64,000 nt of DNA, from contig NZ_OLMF01000005.1 of NCBI RefSeq assembly GCF_900290195.1, forward strand, positions 1-64,000. Reading direction: 5' to 3'. The notes beneath the pieces are model-generated. The model was not told the DNA's origin and ran no database searches. It saw only the letters and a list, made by a program, of their open reading frames with translations. The stretch is from Anaerococcus marasmi (lineage in GTDB: Bacteria; Bacillota; Clostridia; Tissierellales; Peptoniphilaceae). Made by a program: the position numbers and the translations under genes. This document shows, in pieces, positions 6,459-19,488 of this stretch (position 1 is the stretch's first letter; each line of letters opens with the position of its first letter).

Positions 6459-6596
6459 ATATACCTCCATAATCTAATTTACCTATAATATAACACAGTG
6501 ATAAAATAAAAACGATATCATAACTTGATAAATAATTTACATTTTTTGTGTGAATTTCATTCTGTACTATAAATATTTTTTAGAAAAAAGGATTTT

Positions 6597-7406
6597 TCAG
6601 TGGCTTTTGTAGGCTCTTCTGTACCTGGTTGGGGTTGTATCTTCATATTTTTTGAACATCCTTACAAAAAGACTTTCTGAATTATAGCCTGTTTCAGCAG
6701 ATATTTCTGCAACAGTTAAGTTTGAATTCACAAGTAGGTCCTTGGCTCTAGATAGCCTTACTAAAATGAGATAGGTCTTAAAATTATAACCAGTTATTTT
6801 TTTAAAATGTCTACTGACTTCATATTTATTTATATAAAATTTTCTCTCTATCATTTCTAAACTTATGTCTTCCATATAATACTCATTTATGTAGTCTTGG
6901 ATCTTGTATATTATTTCTTCAAATTCATCTCTTTCTCTCTTGAAAAAGTATTCGTTAGACCTAAATATTATAATCATGACTTGGTTGAAAATAAGTTTGG
7001 AATAATGCGAAGATAATATAAGTTTAGGATCCTCATTGATTAAAATATCGAATAGATTCATTACTTCTCTTGCTACAGTATTTGTCAAATTAAATACATA
7101 TGGAAAGTCTATAGGTCTGCTTTGGAAAATTTTGATGTATATTTCCGAAGGTAATAGATTTATTTTTAATATATTATCAATACTTACAACATATCTTTTG
7201 TAGGGATAAGTATTGATAATCATAGAGTGTTTTTCAAGATTAGATATAACAACTAAAGAGTTTTTATTCGCTCTTATTTTCTTATTCTCTATCAAAAAAG
7301 TACTACTACCGCTAGTTATAAAAATGATCTCAACATTATTATGATAATGGGTATTTTCAATGTTATTCTTATTTTCAGTATAATAAATTTTAATATTCTC
7401 TTCCAA
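6597..7406 (-). CDS. AraC-family transcriptional regulator of the GAG locus
   Basis: This 269-residue protein has an N-terminal AraC-type sensor half (HYHNNVEIIFITSG resembles a cupin ligand domain) and two C-terminal helix-turn-helix motifs (about 170-265, including LEMIERKFYINKYEVSRHFK and VAEISAETGYNSESLFVRMF). It is divergent from the PTS/redox operon across a 99-bp gap and followed on its own strand by the hyaluronate lyase gene. It is therefore the obvious candidate activator for both units. The inducer is not known; an imported GAG disaccharide or its phosphate is an inference from the neighbours. The ribosome binding site GGAGGA lies just before the ATG. Confidence 0.88.
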   Translation of the reverse strand: MEENIKIYYTENKNNIENTHYHNNVEIIFITSGSSTFLIENKKIRANKNSLVVISNLEKHSMIINTYPYKRYVVSIDNILKINLLPSEIYIKIFQSRPIDFPYVFNLTNTVAREVMNLFDILINEDPKLILSSHYSKLIFNQVMIIIFRSNEYFFKRERDEFEEIIYKIQDYINEYYMEDISLEMIERKFYINKYEVSRHFKKITGYNFKTYLILVRLSRAKDLLVNSNLTVAEISAETGYNSESLFVRMFKKYEDTTPTRYRRAYKSH

Positions 7407-7475
7407 TCTATCCTCCTAAATACAAGAAATGTAAATAGAATTACAAAAATTACTATCTTTATATTTACTTTACTA

Positions 7476-7501
7476 TGTTATAATCGTAATTAAAGAGGAG
7501 G
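7476..7501 (+). promoter_or_regulatory. Promoter and ribosome binding site of the GAG operon
   Basis: TGTTATAAT at 7476-7484 is an extended -10 with no good -35, as expected for a promoter that needs an AraC-type activator. GAGGAGG at 7495-7501 is a near-perfect ribosome binding site four bases from the ATG at 7506. The short leader leaves little room for an RNA switch. Confidence 0.6.
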
Positions 7502-7505
7502 ATGT

Positions 7506-8819
7506 ATGGAGTTTAATAAAAGAAGGTTTAGCTTCGAAACATTAAATGATTTAAATAAGGAGATTAATAAGTTTGATTTAAACGCTTCAGAAAACGTTGT
7601 AGAGTTAACTTCTCCAATGAATCTTGGTGACTTTACATTAGCTAATAGGATAGTTGCTTTACCAATGGAAGGTGTAGATGCAGTTAATGGAGCGCCTACA
7701 AAACTTACTAGAGATAAATACATAAATGTTGCTCGTGGTGGCTACGGACTTATATGGCTTGAAGCTACATCTGTGAATCGAGAAGGGATGAGTAATAATA
7801 ATCAATTATTCATCAATGAAGATAATTTTAACGAATTTAAGAGATTAAATGAAGATATAAAAAAGGCATCTAAAGAATCTTCGTATAAAAAAGAAGCCTA
7901 TACTGTTCTTCAACTAAATCATTCTGGACGATATTCAAATCATAATAAAAAAGAAAATGCACAAATAGCTACTCACAGAAGATTTCTGGATGAAAAAAGA
8001 GGAATTGAGCATGATAGGAAATTAGTAACAGATACTTATCTTGATAAGTTGAAAAACGATTACCTAAATGCGGCAAAGCTTGCGAAAAAATGTGGATTTA
8101 ATGCGGTTGATATTAAATCCTGTCATGGTTATTTATTATCTGAACTTCTTTCCGCTTCTGATAGGCCGGGGAATTATGGCGGTAGTTTTACTAATAGGAC
8201 TAGGTTCCTGCTGGAAACTATTGATATGATAAAATCTAATTCAGAATGTCAGGGGCTAGAAATCGCTGTAAGGCTTAACATGGCGGATATGACTGAAAAT
8301 GGATTTTCAACAACAGAAAATCTTGAATATAACTTAGAAGAAACTGAAAAACTTATTAATCTATTAAGAGATCGTGGAGTTAAACTTATATCTTTGACTT
8401 TAGGAAATCCTTACTATATTCCTTATCTAAATAAGCCTTCTGATTTGAAAAAAGATGAAGATATTGAAGATCCTTTTACCTCTTCTTACAGAATATTTGA
8501 AATGAGTAGAAAATTACAGAGAAAGTTTCCAGAAATATTCTTTGTAGGAGTTGGTTATACTTTCTTTAGACAATTTGCGGCAAATATTGCTGAAAATGAA
8601 ATAAAACACAACTACATTAAACTTGCTGGTTTTGGAAGAGAGGTCTTAGCCTACCCTGATCTTGCTAATGATCTTTTGAAGGAGTCTTGTCTTGATAAGG
8701 ATAAAGTTTGCATTACTTGTGGATTATGTTCAAAACTTAAGGCTAATTTCTTACCTGCAGGATGTGTTGTTAGAAACAAAGAAACATATGGTAAGTATTT
8801 AAAGGAGCTAGACAAATGA
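7506..8819 (+). CDS. Old-yellow-enzyme-type NADH:flavin oxidoreductase
   Basis: This 437-residue FMN TIM-barrel protein belongs to the OYE / 2,4-dienoyl-CoA reductase group. Visible signatures are LNHSGRYS, the catalytic CHGYLLSELLS segment, the NYGGSFTNRTRFLLE loop, and a C-terminal cysteine cluster CITCGLC plus a later Cys that resembles the 4Fe-4S site of the dienoyl-CoA reductase branch. It lacks the additional C-terminal FAD/NAD domains of full dienoyl-CoA reductases, so it is the barrel alone. Members reduce (or oxidise) activated C=C bonds. First gene of the operon; its stop overlaps the next start in ATGA. Its likely substrate, a GAG-derived unsaturated or keto sugar, is inferred only from context. 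Confidence 0.85.
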   Translation: MEFNKRRFSFETLNDLNKEINKFDLNASENVVELTSPMNLGDFTLANRIVALPMEGVDAVNGAPTKLTRDKYINVARGGYGLIWLEATSVNREGMSNNNQLFINEDNFNEFKRLNEDIKKASKESSYKKEAYTVLQLNHSGRYSNHNKKENAQIATHRRFLDEKRGIEHDRKLVTDTYLDKLKNDYLNAAKLAKKCGFNAVDIKSCHGYLLSELLSASDRPGNYGGSFTNRTRFLLETIDMIKSNSECQGLEIAVRLNMADMTENGFSTTENLEYNLEETEKLINLLRDRGVKLISLTLGNPYYIPYLNKPSDLKKDEDIEDPFTSSYRIFEMSRKLQRKFPEIFFVGVGYTFFRQFAANIAENEIKHNYIKLAGFGREVLAYPDLANDLLKESCLDKDKVCITCGLCSKLKANFLPAGCVVRNKETYGKYLKELDK

Positions 8820-9571
8820 GTAATAAAGTAGCTATTGTTACTGGTGCAACTAGGGGTATTGGATTGGGTATTACAAAACAACTCTTAGCTGATGGTTACA
8901 AAATATGTGCATTTGGAACAAGAGATATAAAAGATTACGAAGAATTTAGCGATATTTATGATCCTGAAAATATCTTTTATTTCAAGGGAGATATTTCAAA
9001 TATTGATGATAGGAAACAATTTGTATCCAAGGCCTACGAAAAATTTGAGTCCATAAATGTATTAGTAAACAATGCTGGAGTTGCACCGAAGGTAAGAGAG
9101 GACATACTTGAAGTATCTGAGGGAAGTATTGATAGATTATTTGAAATTAATACTAAGGCTATGTTTTTCTTGACTCAAGATGTAGCTAAAAGAATGATTA
9201 GTGATAAAAACACAGATAAATGTATCATCAATATTTCATCAATATCATCATCTGTAGTAAGTGTCGATAGGGCAGATTATTGCATATCTAAGGCTGCCAT
9301 ATCAATGATTACTAAATTGTATGCAAGTAGACTTGCGGAGTACGGTATTAATGTTTATGAAATTCAACCTGGAATTATAAAGACTGATATGACTAAAATA
9401 GCTGAGTCAAAATATGATAAGTTATTTAACGAAGGAATAACTCCGATTAGACGATGGGGTTATCCAGAAGATATAGCATTAGCGGTTAGCGCTCTAGCTG
9501 AATTTAAATTCAAATATACGACAGGGCAGGTGATAAAAGTTGACGGCGGATACACTTTACAAACTCTATAG
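8816..9571 (+). CDS. Short-chain dehydrogenase/reductase
   Basis: This 251-residue classical SDR has the cofactor motif TGATRGIG near the N-terminus, NNAG at about residues 84-87, a catalytic Ser in the NISSISSS segment and the YxxxK pair in DYCISKAA. The GYTLQTL C-terminus is typical. It resembles proteins annotated as 3-ketoacyl-ACP reductases but sits in a carbohydrate operon, where SDRs such as KduD act on keto-sugars. I would call the substrate a keto-sugar or sugar acid by inference. Its start overlaps the OYE stop by 4 bp, and its end overlaps the next gene by 32 bp, so translation is coupled. Confidence 0.85.
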   Translation: MSNKVAIVTGATRGIGLGITKQLLADGYKICAFGTRDIKDYEEFSDIYDPENIFYFKGDISNIDDRKQFVSKAYEKFESINVLVNNAGVAPKVREDILEVSEGSIDRLFEINTKAMFFLTQDVAKRMISDKNTDKCIINISSISSSVVSVDRADYCISKAAISMITKLYASRLAEYGINVYEIQPGIIKTDMTKIAESKYDKLFNEGITPIRRWGYPEDIALAVSALAEFKFKYTTGQVIKVDGGYTLQTL

Positions 9572-11405
9572 AGAAAAATTTGATACAATAATCGTTGGTT
9601 CTGGAGCATCTGGTTTTAATGCAGCAAATAGACTCTTCGAAAGAGGGATAAAAAACATAGCTATAGTAACAGAAGACATTAATATTGGAACAAGCAGGAA
9701 TGCTGGTTCTGATAAGCAGACATATTATAAATTATCCTTAGAATCATCTGATTTAGACTCGGTAGATAAAATGGCTAAGGTATATGTTGATGGTTTACAA
9801 ATGCACGGAGACATAGCAAAAGTTGAAGCAAGCGAATCAGTTAGGGCATTTATGAATCTTGTTGAATTAGGAGTTGAGTTTCCTTTTAATGATTATGGAG
9901 AGTATATAGCTTATAAAACTGACCATGACCCGAACAAAAGAGCCACTTCAGCAGGACCATATACGTCAAAGCAAATGACTGAAAAATTGGAAAAAAGAGC
10001 ATCTGACTATGGAATAAAAATTTTAAATCATTTTAAAGTTATTAAAATTTTCACTTCAGATAATGCTTTTGATTCTATCTTGTGCTTACATAAAGATAAC
10101 TTCTACTTAATTGAAGCAAATAATATCATATATGCTACAGGAGGGCCCGCTAACATCTACGCAAACAAGGTCTATCCTAATGGTCAAAAGGGAGCTAGTG
10201 GACTTGCTTTTGAAGCTAAGGTCAAGGGAATGAATTTAACTCATTTTCAATATGGAATGTCATCATTAAATCCTAAGTGGAATGTATCAGGTACTTATAT
10301 GCAAGCAATGCCTAGATTCTATTCTATAGATCAAGAAGGCAAAGAACATGATTTCTTAGCAGAGGAGTATGAAGATTTCAATGAACTTTTGAAAAATGTT
10401 TTTTTAAAAGGATACCAATGGCCATTTGATGTTAGAAAAATAAAGGGATCATCTTTAATTGACTATTTGGTATACAAGGAAGAAATATATAAGAAAAGAA
10501 GAGTCTTCATAGACTTTAGGGAAAATCCTTCATTTAAGGAGATCGAATTTAATAAATTAGACGATGAGGCTAGAGAATATATATTAAAAAATAATGCGGA
10601 CCTTCCTAGACCTATTGATAGATTAATAAAAATGAACAAAAGAGCCTATGATTTTTATTTAGACTATGGAGTTGATTTAAAGAAACAATCCTTAGAGATT
10701 TCAATTTGTGCACAGCATAACAATGGAGGTCTTTATATTGACAAGGACTATGAAACTAATATAAAAAACTTCTATGCGGTAGGTGAAGTTGCAGGGAGTC
10801 ATGGGATTTATAGACCGGGTGGATCTGCATTAAATGCAGGTCAAGTTGGATCAAAAAGGGCAAGTGAGAAGATAAGTCTTACCCAAAGAACATCACCTGC
10901 AAAAGATCATTATGAAGAAGCAAATGAATTTATAGGAAAATTTTATAAGTTAATCTCTGATGAGAGCAATATACATGAGCTCATAAAAGAAGCACAAGTT
11001 GAAATGACAGCAAGCGCATCTGCCTTTAGGAACATAAAAGAGATTAAAGAACTTATATTAAAGCGTAGAACTACTTATAAAAATTTCTATGATTTAGTTA
11101 AGATAAATAAATATGAGCTTATTAAAGCATTCGAGTACTACGATATAATTATTTCTCAATTAGTTTACTTAGAAGCTATGTTAGATTATTATAAAAAAAT
11201 AGATGCGAAAATAGGAGGTAGTATATATTTTGAAGAAGATATAGATTTTAATTCAGAAGGTAGATTTATAAATGAAATTCAAACAGTAGAGTTTGATGGG
11301 GAGAAATGTACATTTGATTGGGAAAAAATTAGAGAAATCCCATCTAATAATTATCCTTTTGAGATTCAATGGAATGATTATTTAGACAAGAGGAGAGTTT
11401 TATAA
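9540..11405 (+). CDS. FAD-dependent oxidoreductase of the fumarate reductase / SDH flavoprotein family
   Basis: This 621-residue flavoprotein begins with an FAD-binding fold (FDTIIVGSGASGFNAANRL). Near residue 390-440 it carries the SDH/FRD/aspartate-oxidase block QHNNGGLYID, FYAVGEVAGSHGIYRPGG, with the His and Arg that in this family bind the substrate carboxylate. There is no signal peptide, FMN-binding or heme domain, so it is cytoplasmic and unlike the secreted flavin fumarate reductases. The start is TTG at 9540, the only sensible choice before the FAD fold, with GCAGGTGA upstream; it overlaps the SDR by 32 bp. Family members reduce or oxidise C=C bonds next to carboxylates. The unsaturated uronate of GAG disaccharides is an attractive inferred substrate. 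Confidence 0.82.
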   Translation: MTADTLYKLYREKFDTIIVGSGASGFNAANRLFERGIKNIAIVTEDINIGTSRNAGSDKQTYYKLSLESSDLDSVDKMAKVYVDGLQMHGDIAKVEASESVRAFMNLVELGVEFPFNDYGEYIAYKTDHDPNKRATSAGPYTSKQMTEKLEKRASDYGIKILNHFKVIKIFTSDNAFDSILCLHKDNFYLIEANNIIYATGGPANIYANKVYPNGQKGASGLAFEAKVKGMNLTHFQYGMSSLNPKWNVSGTYMQAMPRFYSIDQEGKEHDFLAEEYEDFNELLKNVFLKGYQWPFDVRKIKGSSLIDYLVYKEEIYKKRRVFIDFRENPSFKEIEFNKLDDEAREYILKNNADLPRPIDRLIKMNKRAYDFYLDYGVDLKKQSLEISICAQHNNGGLYIDKDYETNIKNFYAVGEVAGSHGIYRPGGSALNAGQVGSKRASEKISLTQRTSPAKDHYEEANEFIGKFYKLISDESNIHELIKEAQVEMTASASAFRNIKEIKELILKRRTTYKNFYDLVKINKYELIKAFEYYDIIISQLVYLEAMLDYYKKIDAKIGGSIYFEEDIDFNSEGRFINEIQTVEFDGEKCTFDWEKIREIPSNNYPFEIQWNDYLDKRRVL

Positions 11406-11406
11406 G

Positions 11407-12393
11407 ATGAAGGCAGTGTTTTTGCTAAGCGAAGATAATTATAAGCGTATATATTCTGATGATTGTTTAGAAAAAATAAAAAAAGAAGTTGAAGTAATAG
11501 GTAGATTTGATTCGATTGCAGAAGCTGTGGATTTAAGTGATGTTGATTTCGTATTTTCTGGTTGGGGAGCAGTGCCCATGGATAAAATAGCTTTAGATGC
11601 TATGCCGAAGCTTAAGTTAGTTTTATATGGGGCAGGATCAATTAAAAAAGTCCAAACTGACTATATGTGGGAGAGAGATGTAGATATTACATCTGCAAGT
11701 TCAGCAAATGCTATTCCAGTTGCTCAGTACACTACAAGCTTGATTCAATTGCTGCTTAAAGACTTTTTCAAGTTAACATCTATTAGTAAGAGCGAAAGAA
11801 AAAACAAATTAGACGTTTATAATTTGTCGAAAGGTTTTTATAAAAGAAACATAGGAATAATATCTTATAGTAAGATTGGTCAAGCTGTTATAAATAATTT
11901 AAAATGTCTATCCGACAACAATATTTATGTATACGATCCGTTATATGATGAAGATTACTTCAGAAAGGAAGGTGTTATCAAGGCAGAACTCACCGAAATA
12001 TTTGAGAAGTGCGATGTTGTTAGTCTTCACACGCCATTACTTGAAGAAACAAAAAATATGATTACTATAGAGCAGTTTTCAAGAATGAAAGAAAATGCTT
12101 CATTTATAAATACTGCTAGGGGAAAGATCATTAATACTGAAGATCTAATAAAAGTTTTTAGTAAAAGAAGTGATCTTACGGCAATATTAGATGTTACTGA
12201 TCCAGAACCTCTAAGCAAAGATTCCTTATTATATGACATGGATAATATTATCTTATCGCCACACATGGCTGGCTCTATAGGAAATGAGACGTATCTTATG
12301 GGAGAAATGATGTATGATGAGCTAATAAGATATATAAATGGTATAGATTTAAAATATAAAATTACTCACGAAGACTTTATGAGGATGGCATAA
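11407..12393 (+). CDS. D-2-hydroxyacid dehydrogenase family protein
   Basis: This 328-residue protein has the late family signatures: SLHTPLLEETKNMI, INTARGKIINTEDL (catalytic Arg region), ILDVTDPEPL (Glu) and SPHMAGS (His). The nucleotide-binding loop is unusual: it reads GIISYSKIGQAV, so the canonical GxGxxG is only partly kept, although the fold position is right. It would reduce a 2-keto acid or oxidise a 2-hydroxy acid with NAD(P)H. Overlap with the next gene is one base (TAATG), showing tight coupling. In this operon it may act on a sugar-acid intermediate; that is inferred. Confidence 0.85.
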   Translation: MKAVFLLSEDNYKRIYSDDCLEKIKKEVEVIGRFDSIAEAVDLSDVDFVFSGWGAVPMDKIALDAMPKLKLVLYGAGSIKKVQTDYMWERDVDITSASSANAIPVAQYTTSLIQLLLKDFFKLTSISKSERKNKLDVYNLSKGFYKRNIGIISYSKIGQAVINNLKCLSDNNIYVYDPLYDEDYFRKEGVIKAELTEIFEKCDVVSLHTPLLEETKNMITIEQFSRMKENASFINTARGKIINTEDLIKVFSKRSDLTAILDVTDPEPLSKDSLLYDMDNIILSPHMAGSIGNETYLMGEMMYDELIRYINGIDLKYKITHEDFMRMA

Positions 12394-13130
12394 TGAAATT
12401 AATTGGTTTATGCTCAGTCACATTCAGAGATAAAAGTGTAGATGAAATTGTAGACCTAGCTATTGAAAATGGTCTAAACTATATCGAATGGGGGGCTGAT
12501 ATTCACTTACCTCCTGGAGATTTTGAGAAAGCAGAAAGAATAAAAAATATATGTCAAAAAAACAATATCTTCTATTCTTATGGGTCATATTTTAAATATA
12601 AAGAAGATGATGACATAAATTTAGTCTTAGCAACCGCAGAAGTTTTAGGTGCTAAGGATGTCAGGATTTGGGCTAAAAGAATTAGTTCAAAAGATATATC
12701 GACTTTGGAGTATGAGAAATTTATTAGGGTAAGCAAAGAAATCTGCGACAAAGCTAAGAACAAAAATATTAATATAAATTTTGAAAATCATAGAAAAACT
12801 CTTACGGATACTACTAAATCAGCTAAAAAGTTATTAGCCGATATAGATAAAGATAATCTATATATGTATTGGCAGCCTCAGGCAGGAAATAATACAAGTG
12901 AAAGACTCGAAGCTATAGATATATTAAAGGATAAAATCTCAAATGTCCATGTTTTTAATTGGGATGATGAATTTAACAGATATCCTCTCAAAGATGCAAG
13001 AGATGAGTGGAAGAGTTATGTGGATAAACTTGGAGACGATAGAGCTTATTTATTGGAATTCGTTGAAGGTGATAGTATTGAACAGTTTAGAGAAGATGCC
13101 AAAGTATTAAAAGAAATAATAGGAGGTTAA
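12393..13130 (+). CDS. Sugar phosphate isomerase/epimerase (xylose-isomerase-like TIM barrel)
   Basis: This 245-residue protein resembles the AP endonuclease 2 / xylose isomerase-like family: early FRDKSVDEIVDLAIENGLNYIEWG, the metal-binding glutamate strand INFENHR, a WQPQAG segment, and VHVFNWD and LLEFVEG near the end. Such enzymes isomerise or epimerise ketoses, inositol derivatives or 3-keto sugars. Tight spacing (1-bp overlap before, 1-bp gap after) puts it firmly in the GAG operon. The substrate cannot be told from sequence. Confidence 0.82.
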   Translation: MKLIGLCSVTFRDKSVDEIVDLAIENGLNYIEWGADIHLPPGDFEKAERIKNICQKNNIFYSYGSYFKYKEDDDINLVLATAEVLGAKDVRIWAKRISSKDISTLEYEKFIRVSKEICDKAKNKNININFENHRKTLTDTTKSAKKLLADIDKDNLYMYWQPQAGNNTSERLEAIDILKDKISNVHVFNWDDEFNRYPLKDARDEWKSYVDKLGDDRAYLLEFVEGDSIEQFREDAKVLKEIIGG

Positions 13131-13131
13131 T

Positions 13132-13620
13132 ATGGGAGCGGAAATTTTATTATTTAGGATAGACGAAAGGTTACTTCATGGGCAAGGACAAATTTGGATA
13201 AGACATTGCGGAGCTAATTCAGTGATATGCGTAAATGATAAGGCAGCAAATGATCCAGTTCAACAAAATTTAATGAAAGCTATGATAGATAAGTCTATTG
13301 CAGTTAGTTTTTATGGTGTTGATAAATTCATTAGTATATTTGATAAGGCAAGTCCTAGACAAAGGTTCTTTATTGTTGTTGGCAGTACACAAGATGCAAT
13401 AAAAATTATTAAATCAGGTATTCCAATAAAAGAAGTTAATATTGGAAATATTCATGACGGTGAAGGTAAGGAAAGAATCACTAGAGCTATATATTTAAGC
13501 GAAAGTGATAAAGACAACTTAAGAAAAATGAGAGATGATTACAATATTTCGTTTAATACAAGATCTACACCATCAGGCTCTGACGGATCTAAAGAAGTAG
13601 ATATCAATGATTATTTATAG
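13132..13620 (+). CDS. PTS mannose/sorbose-family EIIB
   Basis: This 162-residue cytoplasmic EIIB has the start block FRIDERLLHGQGQ, in which His16 is the expected phosphorylation site. It passes phosphate from EIIA (17182) to the sugar during entry through IIC/IID. It is most like the GAG disaccharide / N-acetylgalactosamine subgroup in context and gene order. RBS GGAGG precedes the ATG. It starts the transport half of the operon. Confidence 0.93.
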   Translation: MGAEILLFRIDERLLHGQGQIWIRHCGANSVICVNDKAANDPVQQNLMKAMIDKSIAVSFYGVDKFISIFDKASPRQRFFIVVGSTQDAIKIIKSGIPIKEVNIGNIHDGEGKERITRAIYLSESDKDNLRKMRDDYNISFNTRSTPSGSDGSKEVDINDYL

Positions 13621-13632
13621 TAGGAGTAAAAC

Positions 13633-14424
13633 ATGGAAATTACATTAGTACAAGCATTATTAATTGCATTATGGACCGGTTTAGCATTAGCAGGTTCCTT
13701 ACTCGGAATTTATAGTAACAGATCGCTTGTCCTTTCTTTTGGGATAGGATTAATTTTAGGTGATGTACCTAAAGCATTAACAGTTGGAGCAATAGGTGAA
13801 TTAGCATTTATGGGATTTGGTGTATCACCAGGTGGAACAATACCACCATCTCCTCTAGGACCAGGAATCTTTGGGGCGCTTCTTGCTATTACTAATCCAA
13901 ATATAGATGGACAAACAGCATTTTCTCTATCTATACCATTTGCAATTGCGATACAATTTGCAATAACAGCAATAAATACATTAATGAGTTTTTCACCAGC
14001 TTTAGCTAAAAAAGCGATAGTAGAAGATAATGATAAGAAATTTACATTATATGCTAATCTATCGTTCTTACTACAATTATTAATTGGAGCAATAATTGGT
14101 TTTGTAGCAGCTATATCAACCTCATCAATCAATCAAATGGTAAATATGATTCCAGAGTTTATAACAAATGGTCTTTCAATGGCTGGAGCAATGATACCAG
14201 CAGTTGGTTTTGCTATGATTTTATCTAATATGATAAGAAAAGAGAATGTAGCGTTTGTACTACTAGGCTACATATTAGCTGCATATCTTGAAATGCCATT
14301 GATGGGAGTTGCGGCATTTGCAACATTTTTCGCGATTTATGAGTATCAAAGAAAATCTGATAAAAAAGCTTTAGAAGTATCAGAAGAAAATGATGAAAGG
14401 ATGGAGTTTACAGATGGAATCTAA
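13633..14424 (+). CDS. PTS mannose-family EIIC (membrane channel)
   Basis: This 263-residue, mostly hydrophobic protein has the mannose-family EIIC glycine/proline-rich region (GELAFMGFGVSPGGTIPPSP). It forms the sugar-translocating membrane unit with EIID. Its last codons contain the ribosome binding site and start of EIID. A charged C-terminal tail (KSDKKALEVSEENDERME) is cytoplasmic. Gene order IIB-IIC-IID-YajC-heparinase matches that of streptococcal GAG clusters. Confidence 0.93.
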   Translation: MEITLVQALLIALWTGLALAGSLLGIYSNRSLVLSFGIGLILGDVPKALTVGAIGELAFMGFGVSPGGTIPPSPLGPGIFGALLAITNPNIDGQTAFSLSIPFAIAIQFAITAINTLMSFSPALAKKAIVEDNDKKFTLYANLSFLLQLLIGAIIGFVAAISTSSINQMVNMIPEFITNGLSMAGAMIPAVGFAMILSNMIRKENVAFVLLGYILAAYLEMPLMGVAAFATFFAIYEYQRKSDKKALEVSEENDERMEFTDGI

Positions 14425-15253
14425 TCAAAATAAGAAAAAATTAACAAGTTCAGACTATACAAAAGCTTCCCTTAGAGCGTATATTTTGCAAAATGGATTT
14501 AACTACTCAAATTATCAAGGGACTGGATATGCAAATGTATTAAGACCAGCGCTAAAAAAAATTCATACCAATGATAAGGAAGCATACAAAAACTCAATGT
14601 TGTCAAACCTTGAGTTTTATAACACAAATCCTCAGCTAGTTCCATTTGTATCAAGTGTACAATTAGCCATGGAAGAGGGAGGAGTAGAGCAAGATCAAAT
14701 ACAAGATATGAAAATGGCCTTGATGGGACCTTTGGCGGGTATAGGAGATTCAATATCTCAATTTCTATTAGCTCCTTTATTATCCACAATATTTGCTTCA
14801 ATGGCTGCAGCAGGAAATAATTTAGCACCAGTATTCTTCTTTATAACTATCAATGTAATACTTCTTGTTCTTAAACTTAGTATGGGAAAAGCAGGTTACA
14901 AGGTAGGAATATCTGTAGTAAGTGATTTCTCTGAAAAAATGGAAAAAATAACTAGCGCAGCAAGTATTGTAGGTGTTGCAGTAATTTCAGCGCTTGTTAC
15001 CCAATTTGTTAAAATAAGCATACCTATTACCTATGTAAAAGAAATAGGTGAGCAAACACAAAATGTTGCTATTCAGTCAATGATTGATGGAATGGCACCA
15101 AAACTTTTGCCAGTATTATGGACTGGATTTGTATACTGGTTAGTTAAGAAAAAAGGTTGGACAACTTATAAAGTAATCATCCTAACTGTAATAGTAGCAA
15201 TTATTGGATCAACATTAGGATTGATTTCTCCTAAGGCTCCGGTAATCGAATAA
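14414..15253 (+). CDS. PTS mannose-family EIID
   Basis: Mannose-family EIID, recognised by LRAYILQNGFNYSNYQGTG, the MLSNLEFYNTNPQLVPFV block and the KMALMGPLAGIGDS segment, followed by hydrophobic spans. The open frame extends to 14390, but the ATG at 14414 has AAAGGATGGAG upstream at proper spacing and gives MESNQNKKK, so this start is used (279 residues, 11-bp overlap with EIIC). With EIIC it forms the permease for the imported GAG fragment. Confidence 0.92.
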   Translation: MESNQNKKKLTSSDYTKASLRAYILQNGFNYSNYQGTGYANVLRPALKKIHTNDKEAYKNSMLSNLEFYNTNPQLVPFVSSVQLAMEEGGVEQDQIQDMKMALMGPLAGIGDSISQFLLAPLLSTIFASMAAAGNNLAPVFFFITINVILLVLKLSMGKAGYKVGISVVSDFSEKMEKITSAASIVGVAVISALVTQFVKISIPITYVKEIGEQTQNVAIQSMIDGMAPKLLPVLWTGFVYWLVKKKGWTTYKVIILTVIVAIIGSTLGLISPKAPVIE

Positions 15254-15254
15254 T

Positions 15255-15527
15255 ATGACTAAAAAAGATTGGTTGATAATTCTAGTGATGTATTTTAGCT
15301 TTTGGATTTATTTAGCAATTGATAAATACGAGGCTAGAAAAAGATTAGAAGAATCCATAAAAATTGATGAAAAAACTATAGAGATATCTTGTGGAGATAA
15401 GATAATTACAGTAGCTGGGATTTATGGGGATGTTTCTCAAATTCAAGGAGAAACTGTCATAATAAAATTAGAAGATGGAAATGCTATGAAAATAAGCAAA
15501 AATTCTATATTAAGCAAGGTAATATAA
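15255..15527 (+). CDS. YajC-like small membrane protein of GAG PTS clusters
   Basis: This 90-residue protein has one N-terminal membrane span (WLIILVMYFSFWIYLA) followed by a soluble part (GDKIITVAGIYGDV, VIIKLEDG) that resembles YajC, the accessory subunit of the SecDF translocase. A YajC-like gene at this exact place, between EIID and the heparinase-like gene, is also known from streptococcal GAG operons, so it is probably a dedicated paralogue, not the housekeeping YajC. Its role there is unclear. It overlaps the following gene by one base (TAATG). Confidence 0.8.
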   Translation: MTKKDWLIILVMYFSFWIYLAIDKYEARKRLEESIKIDEKTIEISCGDKIITVAGIYGDVSQIQGETVIIKLEDGNAMKISKNSILSKVI

Positions 15528-17173
15528 TGGATGATTTATACAAGGCTAAATTAATACTAAATGATATATTTGTATTCGATGAAGATGGAGATATGGAAAA
15601 ATGTAAGCTAGAGGTAAAAAATCATCCTCTAGCTTGGGATTTTTCTCCAAATGGAGATGATGAGTGGACTTATATGCTAAATAGATTTTCTTATCTAGAT
15701 CTTTTAGATAGAGCATATAAGGAAACTAGCGATGAAGTATATATTAATAAGGGATTATACTTTATAAATAATTGGATAGACAATGTCAAACTCGAACCAT
15801 CTAAAATGACAAGAACACTAGACACTGGAATGAGGATATATCATTTTATAAATTTTATTTCCCATAGAAAAATAGATGATGAAATATTTATGGAGAAATT
15901 CCGAAAAAGTCTGATGGAACAAATTTATTTTTTGAAAAATCATTACATTGAAAAATATGATCTGAGTAATTGGGGATTAGTACAAGTTATCGCCATAGCA
16001 GTAGCTGGAATCTATTTTAACAATAAAGAAATGTATGATAAGTCAATAGATAAATTAAAAGATATGCTTACTATCCAATATATAGATGATTCTTCTATCC
16101 ATTGGGAAAAATGCATAGGATATCATAATTTCATGTTGTTATGGTTATTGAGATTAAGTGATTTTGAAAAGAGCCATGGATATGAAATAAGTTTTAAAGA
16201 GAACATTAAAAGTATTGCAAAAACAACAAAGCTAACTAGTGATTTATCGTACAAGCAAATAAATAATGGAGATTCAGATCTTACTGATATAAGATTTTTA
16301 ATTAGAAGATATGAGGATATATTTGAAGAAAAAATAGTTTGCGAAAAATATAAACTTTTTGAAAACTACGGACTGTATGTAGAAAAAAACAGCAATTCAT
16401 ATTTATCATGCTATAATCAGTCGATGAGCTCAAATCATACTCATGCGGACTTTACTCATTTTAATTATCAGAATAAAAAATTAAAAATATTGGATGGTGG
16501 AAGATACACCTACAAGGAAGGTAAGGATAGAAAATATTTTAAACTATTTTCTCACAACAACTTAGTTATTGATGGTATTTCATCAATGGGGTATGTTTCC
16601 TCTTGGCAAACAAATTATTACCCTATTATCAACCCAATATACGTGAAAAAAGACAAGAATACATTTGTAGAAATGAGCTACTTTGATGATAATAGGAATA
16701 TTTTTGTAAAGAGAAGAATATTCTATTTAAAAGAGGGTGACTTAATTGTTTTTGATCAGGTAAAGTGTAGTGGAAATCATCAAGTTAAAATGGAATTGTT
16801 GGCTGAAGGTATTAATAGAAAAAATTTCTTAACTAATAAACAATACATGTTGGAAGATGGTGGATATTTTTCTCCAGAATATAATAAATTAGATAGTTGC
16901 CTAAAGGTAAAGATTTCCGAGAATTTTACTGATACTTATACTCAATGTATGGTATTTGGAAATGTTGAAGATTACGAATTTGTTAAGGTAAAAAGAAATA
17001 AAGAATATTTAAGTGATAAACAAGCTTTAGCTATTAGGAATAAAAATGAAATTATTGTAAATGTTTTTGAAGAGATTACTGATTCTCCAAGAGTGTTCAA
17101 TGTAGAGGGAATCAAATTTCATGCTAGAGCAATTGTTTTAAATGGACAGCAAGATTTAGATATATATAGATAG
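15527..17173 (+). CDS. Heparinase II/III-like protein (oligosaccharide lyase)
   Basis: This 548-residue protein has the two-part layout of the family: an all-helical toroid in the first half (HFINFISHRK, NWGLVQVIAIAVAGIYF) and a beta-rich C-terminal half beginning with the HTHADFTHFNYQNK block (His residues) and LKILDGGRYTYKEG. No signal peptide is present, so it acts in the cytoplasm on imported oligosaccharides. The equivalent gene in streptococcal GAG loci occupies the same slot. A lyase of this type could trim longer fragments, but by chemistry it would not be expected to split the unsaturated disaccharide itself. Confidence 0.87.
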   Translation: MDDLYKAKLILNDIFVFDEDGDMEKCKLEVKNHPLAWDFSPNGDDEWTYMLNRFSYLDLLDRAYKETSDEVYINKGLYFINNWIDNVKLEPSKMTRTLDTGMRIYHFINFISHRKIDDEIFMEKFRKSLMEQIYFLKNHYIEKYDLSNWGLVQVIAIAVAGIYFNNKEMYDKSIDKLKDMLTIQYIDDSSIHWEKCIGYHNFMLLWLLRLSDFEKSHGYEISFKENIKSIAKTTKLTSDLSYKQINNGDSDLTDIRFLIRRYEDIFEEKIVCEKYKLFENYGLYVEKNSNSYLSCYNQSMSSNHTHADFTHFNYQNKKLKILDGGRYTYKEGKDRKYFKLFSHNNLVIDGISSMGYVSSWQTNYYPIINPIYVKKDKNTFVEMSYFDDNRNIFVKRRIFYLKEGDLIVFDQVKCSGNHQVKMELLAEGINRKNFLTNKQYMLEDGGYFSPEYNKLDSCLKVKISENFTDTYTQCMVFGNVEDYEFVKVKRNKEYLSDKQALAIRNKNEIIVNVFEEITDSPRVFNVEGIKFHARAIVLNGQQDLDIYR

Positions 17174-17181
17174 GAGATTGA

Positions 17182-17604
17182 ATGATTGGGTTAATTGTAA
17201 CAGGTCATGGACAGTATGCGTCTGGACTTAAAAGTGGTTTAAATTTAGTGGTTGGAGATCTTGCCAATGTAAGAGCCATAGATTTCGAGGGAGACAGGGT
17301 TGAGGCATATAAAGTTAAATTAAAAGAAATTATTTCAGAAATGCTAGAAAAATATGATTCATTAGCTATTGCCACAGATATTGCAGGAGGAACTCCTTAT
17401 AATACTGCGGTTACTTTAACTAATGAAGATCAAAGAGTTATGGTATTTTCAGGTCTTAACTTCCAACTAGCCTATGAACTTTCCAATTTAGAAAGTGATG
17501 TAAAATCATACGCCGACGAAGCTATAAAAGTTGCCAAAGATGGAATTTCATATTTTGTTATGAATTACGATGACGAAGATACAAGTTTTGAGGGTGGAAT
17601 TTAG
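17182..17604 (+). CDS. PTS mannose-family EIIA
   Basis: This 140-residue EIIA of the mannose/fructose type starts MIGLIVTGHGQYASG; His9 is the expected phosphoryl acceptor from HPr. ATDIAGGTPYNTA is also typical. It completes the PTS phosphorelay of the operon, in which all four domains are separate proteins. Last gene of the operon, followed at once by a strong terminator. Confidence 0.93.
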   Translation: MIGLIVTGHGQYASGLKSGLNLVVGDLANVRAIDFEGDRVEAYKVKLKEIISEMLEKYDSLAIATDIAGGTPYNTAVTLTNEDQRVMVFSGLNFQLAYELSNLESDVKSYADEAIKVAKDGISYFVMNYDDEDTSFEGGI

Positions 17605-17646: not shown

Positions 17647-18019
17647 AAGTGCGCTCGGCATGAGCATATTCTAACAGGTGCAAGTCCTAAGTGTGCCCGG
17701 TAGTGGGAAACACATAGCCAAAGGCAAGGGTGTCCATCGTGAGGTGGAATCTGAAGGAAGCCCTAGGCAAACTCTTGGTCTGACGAACAGAAATCACATA
17801 AGGCAGTTACGTAGGATAAGCTTGCTTAACAAAGTAAAGTCCAATAACTACACGGAATACGTAAATGTAAATGTGGCAGATATATGAGGGGAAAGAATAT
17901 GTTCTTACCCGAGGAGGTCTCATAGGCGACTTAGTAGTAACAACGAACTATGAGAAGTCAGCAGAAGTCATAGTACTAGCTAAAACTAGGAAGGACCGAA
18001 CTACAGGAGGTATAAATTT

Positions 18020-19411
18020 ATGAAAGAAACTAATCATGACAAAGACTGTAGAAAATCAACCAGACTAATCAAAGATAACTCAGAAAGTGAAAATAAATTA
18101 GCTGGACACAGTCATGATAAGATTAACTCAAAAGAAAATACCAAAAATGAACTAATTGAAAAAATACTCCATCGAAACAACCTAAACGAAGCCTTTAAAA
18201 GAGTAAAATCCAATAAAGGTTCAGCAGGAATAGATGGAATATCAACAGAAGAACTCCTAGAACATCTAAAAGAAAACAAAGATAAAATACTAGGACAAAT
18301 AAGAGCAAGGAAATACAAGCCAAAACCAGTAAAAAGGGTACAAATACCAAAATCAAATGGTAAGAAACGAAATCTAGGAATACCCACAACAACAGATAGG
18401 GTAATACAACAAGCAATAGCACAAATACTAAGCCCCATCTATGAAAATAAATTCTCAGAAAACAGCTATGGATTTAGACCAAATAGAAGTGCACACGATG
18501 CCTTAAAAAGGATAAAAGAAATAGCAGATGAAGGATACACATGGGTAGTAGATTTAGACCTAGAAAAATACTTCGACACAGTAAACCAATCCAAACTAAT
18601 ACAAATCCTATCAGAAGAAATAAAAGATGGAGATGTAATATCCTTAATACACAAATATCTAAAATCAGGAATAATGATAGATGGAATAAAAGTAAAATCA
18701 GACAAAGGCGTACCACAAGGTGGGCCCCTAAGTCCACTACTCGCAAACATCTACCTAAATGAAGCTGATCAAGAACTTGAAAAATGGGGATACAAATTTG
18801 TAAGATATGCAGACGACATGCTAATATTCGCAAGAAATAGGAAAGCAGCCGAAAGATACTACAAAAGAGTCAAAAATCTGTTAGAAGGAAAATTAAAACT
18901 TAAAGTAAACGAGGAAAAGACCTCAATAAGAAAATTAAGTCAAACAAAATATCTAGGATATGGATTTTATCATAATAATGGAACCCAATTAAAAGTACAC
19001 AAAGAAAGCCTAAAGAAACTAAAGGCAAAACTAAAAGCGGTAACAAGCAGAAGTAATGCACTAGGCTATAGGCAAAGAAGAATAAAAATCAACCAAATCG
19101 CAAGAGGATGGATTCAATATTTCAAACTTGCAAATATGAGAAAACACCTTCAAATTTTAGACGAATGGTTAAGAAGAAGAATCAGAATGTGTGCGTGGAA
19201 AGGCTGGAAGAAAGTAAAAACCAAATTTACAAATCTAGTAAAATTAGGAATAGCAAAATTCCAAGCTTGGCAATGGGCAAATACACGCAAATCATATTGG
19301 AGAATAGCAAAAAGTCCAATACTAAACAGAGCTCTTAACAACAAAAGAATAGCTGAGAGGGGATATGTATCCCTAGTCAGCTATTACAATAAAGTTCAAA
19401 TTAAACTGTAG
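18020..19411 (+). CDS. ltrA: Group II intron reverse transcriptase/maturase
   Basis: This 463-residue protein has the RT blocks in order: NKGSAGIDGIS (RT0-1), GIPTTTDRVIQQAI, SYGFRPNRSAHDAL, VVDLDLEKYFDTVN, GVPQGGPLSPLLANI, and YADD at residues 263-266 (catalytic Asp pair). The maturase X/thumb region follows (IARGWIQYFKLANM). There is no C-terminal HNH endonuclease, as in class C. AGGAGG lies ten bases before the ATG. Base composition is very A-rich on the coding strand, unlike neighbouring genes, fitting a mobile gene. It would promote splicing and mobility of its host intron. Confidence 0.95.
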   Translation: MKETNHDKDCRKSTRLIKDNSESENKLAGHSHDKINSKENTKNELIEKILHRNNLNEAFKRVKSNKGSAGIDGISTEELLEHLKENKDKILGQIRARKYKPKPVKRVQIPKSNGKKRNLGIPTTTDRVIQQAIAQILSPIYENKFSENSYGFRPNRSAHDALKRIKEIADEGYTWVVDLDLEKYFDTVNQSKLIQILSEEIKDGDVISLIHKYLKSGIMIDGIKVKSDKGVPQGGPLSPLLANIYLNEADQELEKWGYKFVRYADDMLIFARNRKAAERYYKRVKNLLEGKLKLKVNEEKTSIRKLSQTKYLGYGFYHNNGTQLKVHKESLKKLKAKLKAVTSRSNALGYRQRRIKINQIARGWIQYFKLANMRKHLQILDEWLRRRIRMCAWKGWKKVKTKFTNLVKLGIAKFQAWQWANTRKSYWRIAKSPILNRALNNKRIAERGYVSLVSYYNKVQIKL

Positions 19412-19488
19412 AACCGCCGTATACGGAACCGTACGTACGGTGGTGTGAGAGGTCGGTAAATGAAATAATCATTTACCTCCTACTCGAT
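19411..19488 (+). ncRNA. Group II intron domains V and VI
   Basis: Domain V begins at the maturase stop with GAACCGCCGT and pairs through CGTACGG / CCGTACG elements up to about 19446. Domain VI is the hairpin GGTAAATGA (19456-19464) / TCATTTACC (19470-19478), followed by the 3' terminus TCCTACTCGAT. These are the catalytic core and branch-point domains; their presence suggests the intron can still splice. Confidence 0.8.

Follow-up and report, generated by a model that had tools for sequence, protein, structure and literature searches.

The closest described system is the streptococcal glycosaminoglycan (GAG) cluster, in which a hyaluronate lyase is encoded together with a GAG-type phosphotransferase system (GAG-PTS), the unsaturated glucuronyl hydrolase (UGL) of family GH88 and the enzymes DhuI and DhuD; according to the parts of PMC6837340 that deal with import, the streptococcal GAG-PTS takes up the unsaturated hyaluronan disaccharide and, in the accepted view, adds a phosphate at C-6. 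Related in their logic are glycoside pathways that proceed by oxidation and beta-elimination (AtOGE/AtHYD of A. tumefaciens, PUE for C-glycosides, the levoglucosan operon of B. smithii), for which the relevant sections of PMC10628242 give a predicted course of oxidation, elimination, hydration and reduction, shown on 3-keto glucosides. Here we describe an operon at positions 7506-17604 of a stretch of 64,000 nucleotides from Anaerococcus marasmi (contig NZ_OLMF01000005.1, positions 1 to 64,000; this whole stretch is called the window below), which shares with the streptococcal cluster the PL8 lyase and the mannose-family components IIA, IIB, IIC and IID. YajC and heparinase-like genes, present in it as well, are also held by the streptococcal GAG clusters. 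It differs from those clusters in that GH88, KduI and any RpiB-family gene as long as DhuI are lacking, that five redox and TIM-barrel genes occupy the slot of GH88, and that the regulator is of the AraC family.

The five genes encode a flavoenzyme of the Old Yellow Enzyme family (OYE), a short-chain dehydrogenase/reductase (SDR), a flavoprotein of the FrdA/SdhA fold (the FAD protein), a protein of the D-2-hydroxyacid dehydrogenase family (HADH) and an AsbF-like TIM barrel (the TIM protein); OYE, SDR and FAD protein are referred to as the core. We consider it rather probable that these five enzymes replace the GH88 hydrolase in a GAG operon. The cassette is real and conserved, and that it takes the place of a known module at the level of genes is fairly well supported; its chemistry we infer.

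The eleven open reading frames (ORFs), named by their Pfam families, all lie on the plus strand as one operon in the order OYE-SDR-FAD-HADH-TIM-IIB-IIC-IID-YajC-heparinase-like-IIA, with successive intergenic gaps of -4, -32, 1, -1, 1, 12, -35, 1, -1 and 8 bases. A preliminary description of this DNA had read the ORFs, their order, coordinates and functions in the same way (11 of 11), and it was equally right on the tight coupling of the genes (gaps of -35 to +12 bases) and on a PL8 gene beside a mannose-family GAG-PTS and a heparinase-like gene. The divergent regulator and then the lyase flank the operon on its 5' side:

3480-6470, minus strand: PL8 lyase with all three Lyase_8 domains (PF08124 314 bits, PF02278 209, PF02884 55)
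6597-7406, minus strand: AraC-family regulator (PF12833, PF00165), between PL8 and the operon
7407-7505, no strand: 99-base spacer separating regulator and operon, in which AGGAGG precedes the OYE start
7506-8819, plus strand: OYE-family flavoenzyme (PF00724 123 bits)
8816-9571, plus strand: SDR (PF13561/PF00106)
9540-11405, plus strand: FrdA/SdhA-fold flavoprotein, TTG start (PF00890, FAD_binding_2, 63 bits)
11407-12393, plus strand: D-2-hydroxyacid dehydrogenase family, HADH (PF02826 138 bits)
12393-13130, plus strand: AsbF-like TIM barrel, AP_endonuc_2 (PF01261 46 bits)
13132-13620, plus strand: mannose-family PTS IIB (PF03830)
13633-14424, plus strand: PTS IIC (PF03609)
14390-15253, plus strand: PTS IID (PF03613)
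15255-15527, plus strand: YajC-like (PF02699 32.5 bits, cut-off 28.2; NCBIfam 44.1 against a cut-off of 44.2)
15527-17173, plus strand: heparinase II/III-like lyase (PF16889 and PF07940, N- and C-terminal parts), no signal peptide by eye
17182-17604, plus strand: PTS IIA, EIIA-man (PF03610 49 bits)

The PL8 protein begins with a segment like a signal peptide and ends in an SPKTG-hydrophobic-KKKEK tail (motifs read by eye); it is likely anchored to the cell surface, and its family suggests an unsaturated GAG disaccharide as the product. The AraC gene is likely the regulator of the operon and the 99 bases between the two probably form the promoter region. In the heparinase-like protein N148, Y199, H304, H306 and H343 are invariant over 20 aligned rows. 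A Pfam search of the operon ORFs recognised no other glycosidase; likewise the operon holds no GlycDH- or Gfo-type 3-dehydrogenase, its oxidoreductases being SDR, HADH, OYE and FAD_binding_2 only.

The GH88 slot in related genomes

For the replacement the operon was compared with a genome of the same family and another genus (G086), where PL8 is accompanied by a homologous operon of IIA-like, GH88, IIB, IIC, IID and heparinase-like genes (identities to the window of 50% for IIB, IIC and IID, 27% for the heparinase-like and 31% for the IIA-like protein; no match to YajC in this operon). The slot 5' of IIB is held by GH88 in G086 and by the five cassette genes in the window, in agreement with the earlier proposal that these genes stand in place of the hydrolase. 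Beside the G086 operon are encoded a DhuI-like RpiB-type protein of 212 amino acids (PRK09273 345 bits, cut-off 137), a DhuD-like SDR (PRK07097 495 bits, cut-off 369), kdgK and kdgA.

The genome to which the window belongs (G000; 2,130,060 bases, 99.7% complete) gave not a single match to the GH88 profile PF07470, which we take to cover GH105 as well; a control search was positive in 3 of 14 genomes. KduI (PF04962) is equally without a match in the whole genome. The RpiB family model (not that of DhuI) has five matches, in frames of 158-179 amino acids, whereas DhuI has about 211 and its counterpart in G086 has 212; four of them form two adjacent pairs resembling LacA/LacB and one is single. 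Two kdgA genes lie outside the locus, each followed by a KdgK-type kinase (profile match 1e-161 or better), in clusters that also encode two glucuronate isomerases, a mannonate dehydratase and a gene of the altronate/galactarate-dehydratase family. These uronate clusters (L107:7866-13762 and L108:7434-14805 on G000:C2) are close together and their kdgA-kdgK pairs are very similar. The preliminary description had listed GH88, kduI, kdgK and kdgA as missing: for GH88, after the genome-wide search that it had called for, and for kduI this extends to the genome, whereas kdgK and kdgA are missing from the locus only, since the cell has two pairs of them elsewhere.

Two other genomes of the genus carry the operon as a unit. 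In G016 the whole region recurs in the same neighbourhood with PL8 included (83% identity in the best PL8 segment), and in G065 the part from AraC to IIA is found at 94% DNA identity, without PL8 (L133:6379-17392). The flanks in G065 (about 6.4 kb before and 1.6 kb after) have no match to the first 30 kb of the window except for 62 bases. Since the G065 block lies in other flanks, the regulator, the cassette, the PTS and the heparinase-like gene occur as one block in different settings, and because the whole operon recurs in G016 and G065 its arrangement is not due to chance. GH88 has no match in the G065 genome. PL8 has none there either, and it looks as if this organism lived on disaccharides made by others. 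The five-gene stretch had no match in the plasmid collection. Directly 3' of IIA the window carries a group II intron (17733-19488; Rfam group-II-D1D4-3, D1D4-1 and Intron_gpII) with a reverse transcriptase/maturase ORF at 18020-19411; its sole match to G065 is a piece of 62 bases, which lies elsewhere in the G065 stretch.

The preliminary description had also proposed a survey of other genomes for the cassette together with PL8 and a mannose-family PTS. Two more, separately placed links of PL8 with the core came to light, both in genomes without a GH88 match: G025, with PL8, TIM, HADH and FAD genes on one contig, and L061 (G648), with a run kdgA-kdgK-x-PL8-OYE-SDR-FAD. The latter (L061:4767-11887 and the two genes before it) comes from a Bacilli genome from horse faeces; x is a protein of 289 amino acids and the PL8 has no obvious signal peptide by eye.

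Across 249 genomes of the order, 6 have GH88 over the cut-off, 5 have PL8 and 12 have the FAD protein (E<=1e-60). The five with PL8 divide into three with the core and no GH88 (G000, G016, G025) and two with GH88 and no FAD core (G086 and G119, the latter 9% contaminated), a split with a p of 0.1. Within the class, GH88 (E<=1e-9) is present in 21 of 25 other PL8 genomes and the FAD protein in 4 (G330, G353, G477, G617); G353 has SDR, FAD, TIM and HADH genes and only a weak GH88 match (8.8e-6). When these 25 are joined with G000, G016, G025, G086 and G119 (the genome of L061 is not counted), the core occurs in 4 of the 7 PL8 genomes without GH88 at E<=1e-9 (G000, G016, G025, G353) and in 3 of the 23 with it (G330, G477, G617), a weak association in which the window's own genome is counted (Fisher p 0.03). 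The opposition of core and GH88 in the PL8 genomes of the class is therefore only a tendency; perfect mutual exclusion is ruled out by the three class genomes that have both.

Distribution of the cassette

One genome per species was scanned with an alignment of three FAD proteins as the query, which returned at least 572 confirmed relatives, and the best 80 loci were examined; they fall in Clostridia, spirochaetes, Halanaerobium and a few Actinobacteria. By tblastn, OYE is present in 57 of these loci, SDR in 69, both in 55, HADH in 19, TIM in 18 and all five genes in 14, many contigs being broken off. Among the neighbours are heparinase-like lyases, PL8 (L061), UxaC, UxaE, UxaA, KDPG aldolase, PfkB kinases, dihydroxyacid dehydratase, GH28, GH43, GH30, GH2 and small-acid transporters (of the branched-chain amino acid (BCAA) ABC, TctA and, by eye, TRAP-like types), and kdgA or kdgK stands next to the core in L026, L061, L071, L080 and L138 (G177). 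Apparent opposite-strand ORF artefacts on GC-rich contigs (clusters c7, c12, c18, c25, c26, c37) make the neighbour lists there incomplete.

Profile searches found a lyase (heparinase-like or PL8) in 19 of the 80 cassette stretches and in 1 of 40 controls, and a lyase or uronate-catabolism gene in 41 of the former and 4 of the latter. This enrichment is somewhat inflated, since the families chosen for the uronate-gene profiles had come to notice as neighbours of the cassette, and since the control stretches, taken from 40 of the 50 genomes tested for GH88, are shorter (mean 14.7 kb against 16.9 kb). The lyase is concentrated in the loci that bear TIM, 15 of 18 as against 4 of the 62 others, and it occurs in 13 of the 14 loci with all five genes. 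A tree of 75 FAD proteins requires no fewer than 4 changes for the combination of TIM, HADH and heparinase, and on it the copies linked to PL8 (window, G025, L061) stand in three different places, the window's own placement being weakly supported.

The earlier view that the cassette is tied to GAG loci did not survive this survey: the OYE-SDR-FAD core occurs in loci unrelated to GAGs, and with at least 572 FAD relatives and many core loci beside uronate genes and small-acid transporters a GAG specificity of the cassette is ruled out. In L029, L032, L033, L044 and L138 the core is accompanied, in most of them, by a BCAA-type ABC transporter, a dihydroxyacid dehydratase and a Zn-alcohol dehydrogenase, and in some by URO-D and a VOC-like gene (by eye); it probably acts on another acid substrate there. 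At L089:12892-14556 a protein of 554 amino acids without a Pfam match at 0.001 adjoins OYE-SDR-FAD-HADH and is perhaps another type of lyase or hydrolase.

GH88 was sought in the genomes of 50 of the 80 loci, which are not a random draw and include many related metagenome genomes of unstated completeness (left out were L025, L028, L030, L031, L034-L036, L038, L041, L042, L046, L047, L050, L053, L055, L056, L064, L073, L074, L077, L082, L086, L087, L090, L091, L093, L094, L096, L099 and L103). None of the 14 genomes with all five genes has GH88 at E<=1e-9 (one has a weak match, 4.3e-4), as compared with 18 of the 36 other cassette genomes (p 7e-4, relatedness ignored). Among TIM-bearing genomes GH88 is found in 3 of 18 (L045, L068, L088; TIM against the rest p 0.06, relatedness ignored), so that TIM alone does not exclude it. 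A looser grouping of 17 genomes with TIM and/or HADH (GH88 in 0 of 17, p 9e-5) was dropped, as L045, L060, L068 and L088, which have TIM or HADH and not both, had been left outside it and do have GH88. PL8 passes the cut-off in one of the 50 cassette genomes, that of L061, where it lies inside the cassette run.

Cassette enzymes and the proposed route

The OYE is proposed to be a C=C reductase. Its C-terminal Cx2Cx2Cx11C motif is Fe-S-like, with the four Cys in 48-49 of 50 aligned rows, and we take its barrel with this motif to resemble the BaiCD/dienoyl-CoA-reductase type of OYE, from which it differs in the spacing Cx2Cx2C, the absence of a fused FAD domain and a Lys at the first active-site His; the match to the BaiCD model of NCBIfam is weak (84 bits, cut-off 825). 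An HxxH or HxxN substrate pair is the rule in the active site of Old Yellow Enzymes. The window's enzyme departs from it, although the PF00724 model matches: K204, which aligns with the leading His of HAAH in YqjM, and H207 are present in 50 of 50 rows. In the SDR, which may oxidise the allylic C3-hydroxyl of the unsaturated uronyl residue, the catalytic residues Ser142, Tyr155 and Lys159 are each conserved in 61 of 61 rows, and in HADH, the candidate for a redox step between 2-oxo and 2-hydroxyacid, the catalytic R238, E267 and H286 are found in 22 of 22.

Structure models were made of the FAD and TIM proteins. The FAD protein (pLDDT 88) has its best Foldseek matches in FrdA/SdhA; it is the marker protein of the cassette and is proposed as a second C=C oxidoreductase. 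Its stretch SRN[TA]GSDKQTYYK near the FAD site, in which only the fourth position varies over 69 aligned rows, makes a good signature for the subfamily. The TIM protein (pLDDT 94.8) has AsbF, a probable 3-dehydroshikimate dehydratase of a siderophore pathway, as its best match both by sequence profile (E 1.4e-22, the second-best family having 8.5e-8) and by fold, at about 20-22% identity. Its residues E131, H133, Q161, H186 and E222 are invariant over 21 rows and form a metal-site-like set, of a kind that is common in this fold. The TIM barrels of the oxidation/elimination pathways, as PMC10628242 depicts them, have a similar pattern, with Glu (or His)-x-His on strand 5, a His on strand 7 and a Glu on strand 8. 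The TIM protein is a candidate beta-eliminase. The window would share with those pathways an oxidation, an elimination by a metal-bearing TIM barrel and the use of further enzymes; it differs, by the account in the same sections, in its SDR, OYE and FrdA-fold enzymes, its single TIM barrel and its likely substrate, an unsaturated uronide.

The cassette would most likely serve to convert unsaturated uronides to 2-keto-3-deoxygluconate (KDG) without hydrolysis. The preliminary description had likewise supposed oxidation/elimination or C=C reduction in place of hydrolysis, which is plausible. The chances appear about even that the operon is a GAG-disaccharide utilisation unit whose five enzymes stand in for GH88 together with an isomerase/reductase pair (DhuI-DhuD or KduI-KduD). 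In such a unit the surface PL8 would make, as is established for the family, a disaccharide of Delta4,5-glucuronate and N-acetylglucosamine (or N-acetylgalactosamine), which the PTS would import, probably as the 6-phosphate. The SDR would then oxidise the allylic C3-hydroxyl to a 3-keto enone; a 3-keto-Delta4,5-uronide is the ring-oxygen analogue of 3-dehydroshikimate, the AsbF substrate. The AsbF-like TIM protein would take the C2 proton and expel the amino sugar from C1 by beta-elimination, with no hydrolysis, the Fe-S-type OYE and the FrdA-fold flavoprotein would reduce the two C=C bonds, and HADH would adjust the 2-oxo position, water being added on ring opening, to give KDG for the kdgK and kdgA copies elsewhere in the genome. 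The succession of SDR oxidation, TIM elimination and flavoenzyme reduction is tentative and on balance doubtful; OYE might also precede TIM, with a 4-deoxy-3-keto uronide as the intermediate, and the data do not choose the order. Should no reduction precede the elimination, comenate (5-hydroxy-4-oxo-4H-pyran-2-carboxylate, C6H4O5) would arise. Splitting by such aromatisation of the uronyl residue, with a return from comenate to KDG, seems to us unlikely; by mass balance (C6H4O5 + H2O + 4[H] = C6H10O6) the return takes a molecule of water and the reduction of two C=C bonds, and the cassette encodes two flavoenzymes.

Several observations weigh against the proposed route. The FrdA His and Arg that we presume to be catalytic align with Gln392 and Arg425 of the FAD protein, so that only the Arg is retained, and in the TIM protein, where E131-x-H133, H186 and E222 are present as in the 3-keto-glycoside eliminase set (Glu or His, Asp, His and Glu as metal ligands, with a catalytic His two positions behind the ligand on strand 5), the usual metal Asp is Gln161. 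AsbF, sugar epimerases and 3-keto-glycoside eliminases share one fold, which therefore does not show the reaction. In 39 of the 80 cassette loci the stretch examined contains neither a lyase nor one of the uronate genes sought, and the occurrence of the core with small-acid transporters suggests a substrate of monosaccharide size for the core. TIM without HADH coexists with GH88 in L045, L068 and L088; G330, G477 and G617 have PL8, GH88 and the core together, in G477 with TIM and HADH and hence all five genes; G275, G382 and G518 have PL8 and neither the core nor a clear GH88; and the G065 operon comes without PL8.

One could argue that the cassette acts only once the disaccharide has been split, be it by a hydrolase that escaped recognition or by a different operon protein, and that it replaces merely the DhuI/KduI and DhuD/KduD steps from the unsaturated or 4-deoxy-5-keto uronate to KDG. 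The absence of KduI from the genome and of any RpiB-family frame above 179 amino acids (212 in G086) speaks for this, as do the core without TIM near kdgA/kdgK and small-acid transporters in several loci and the coexistence of core and GH88 in 18 of the 36 cassette genomes that lack the full five and in 3 of the 18 with TIM. However, it leaves unexplained why GH88 (E<=1e-9) is found in 0 of the 14 all-five genomes and why a lyase accompanies 15 of the 18 TIM loci; moreover, an isomerase-reductase step would hardly call for as many as five enzymes, and the operon has no other recognised glycosidase. We hold this explanation to be somewhat unlikely.

It is less probable still, and in our estimate quite unlikely, that the cassette handles another acid, such as 4-O-methylglucuronate or a uronate modified in some other way, and is tied to the operon only by co-regulation, while the disaccharide has a different fate. 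The core is indeed widespread outside GAG loci, in part with GH43, GH30, GH28, UxaE and UROD neighbours; yet in the window its genes overlap inside the GAG-PTS operon in the GH88 slot, in G065 they form one block with it, and three separate links to PL8 exist. That the heparinase-like protein or the TIM protein itself is a hydrolase or hydratase for the disaccharide, the redox genes serving side reactions such as the removal of reactive enones, we regard as improbable. The invariant Tyr, His and Asn of the heparinase-like proteins and the presence of the hydratase AtHYD among TIM barrels of this fold would fit such a role, but the G086 operon combines GH88 with a heparinase-like gene, so that the latter does not make GH88 unnecessary there.

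Implications for host-glycan use

Searches of a partial collection of open-licence PMC papers without preprints, judged by titles and the beginnings of abstracts, brought up no description of the cassette or of a GH88-independent route, whether they were directed at these, at the background of the genus or at comenate; this is not proof of absence. Surveys of GAG catabolism, PMC12838403 for example, look for UGL/GH88 with clusters of kduI/dhuI and kduD/dhuD; judged in this way, this genome and its relatives would count as incapable of using what their own PL8 produces. If the cassette does the job, the use of host glycans by such anaerobes is undercounted, and subfamilies of flavoenzymes and TIM barrels without a close solved relative gain a testable function; they occur in hundreds of loci, and in the sample about one locus in two has lyase or uronate genes nearby. 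If the proposed route is true, glycoside cleavage by oxidation and elimination extends from 3-keto glucosides to the unsaturated uronides made by lyases; the comenate variant, if true, would be a new mode of cleaving the glycosidic link to an unsaturated uronate and would make a pyrone a regular intermediate of sugar catabolism. The five-enzyme cassette in the position of GH88 suggests an undescribed, non-hydrolytic breakdown of host GAG sugars.

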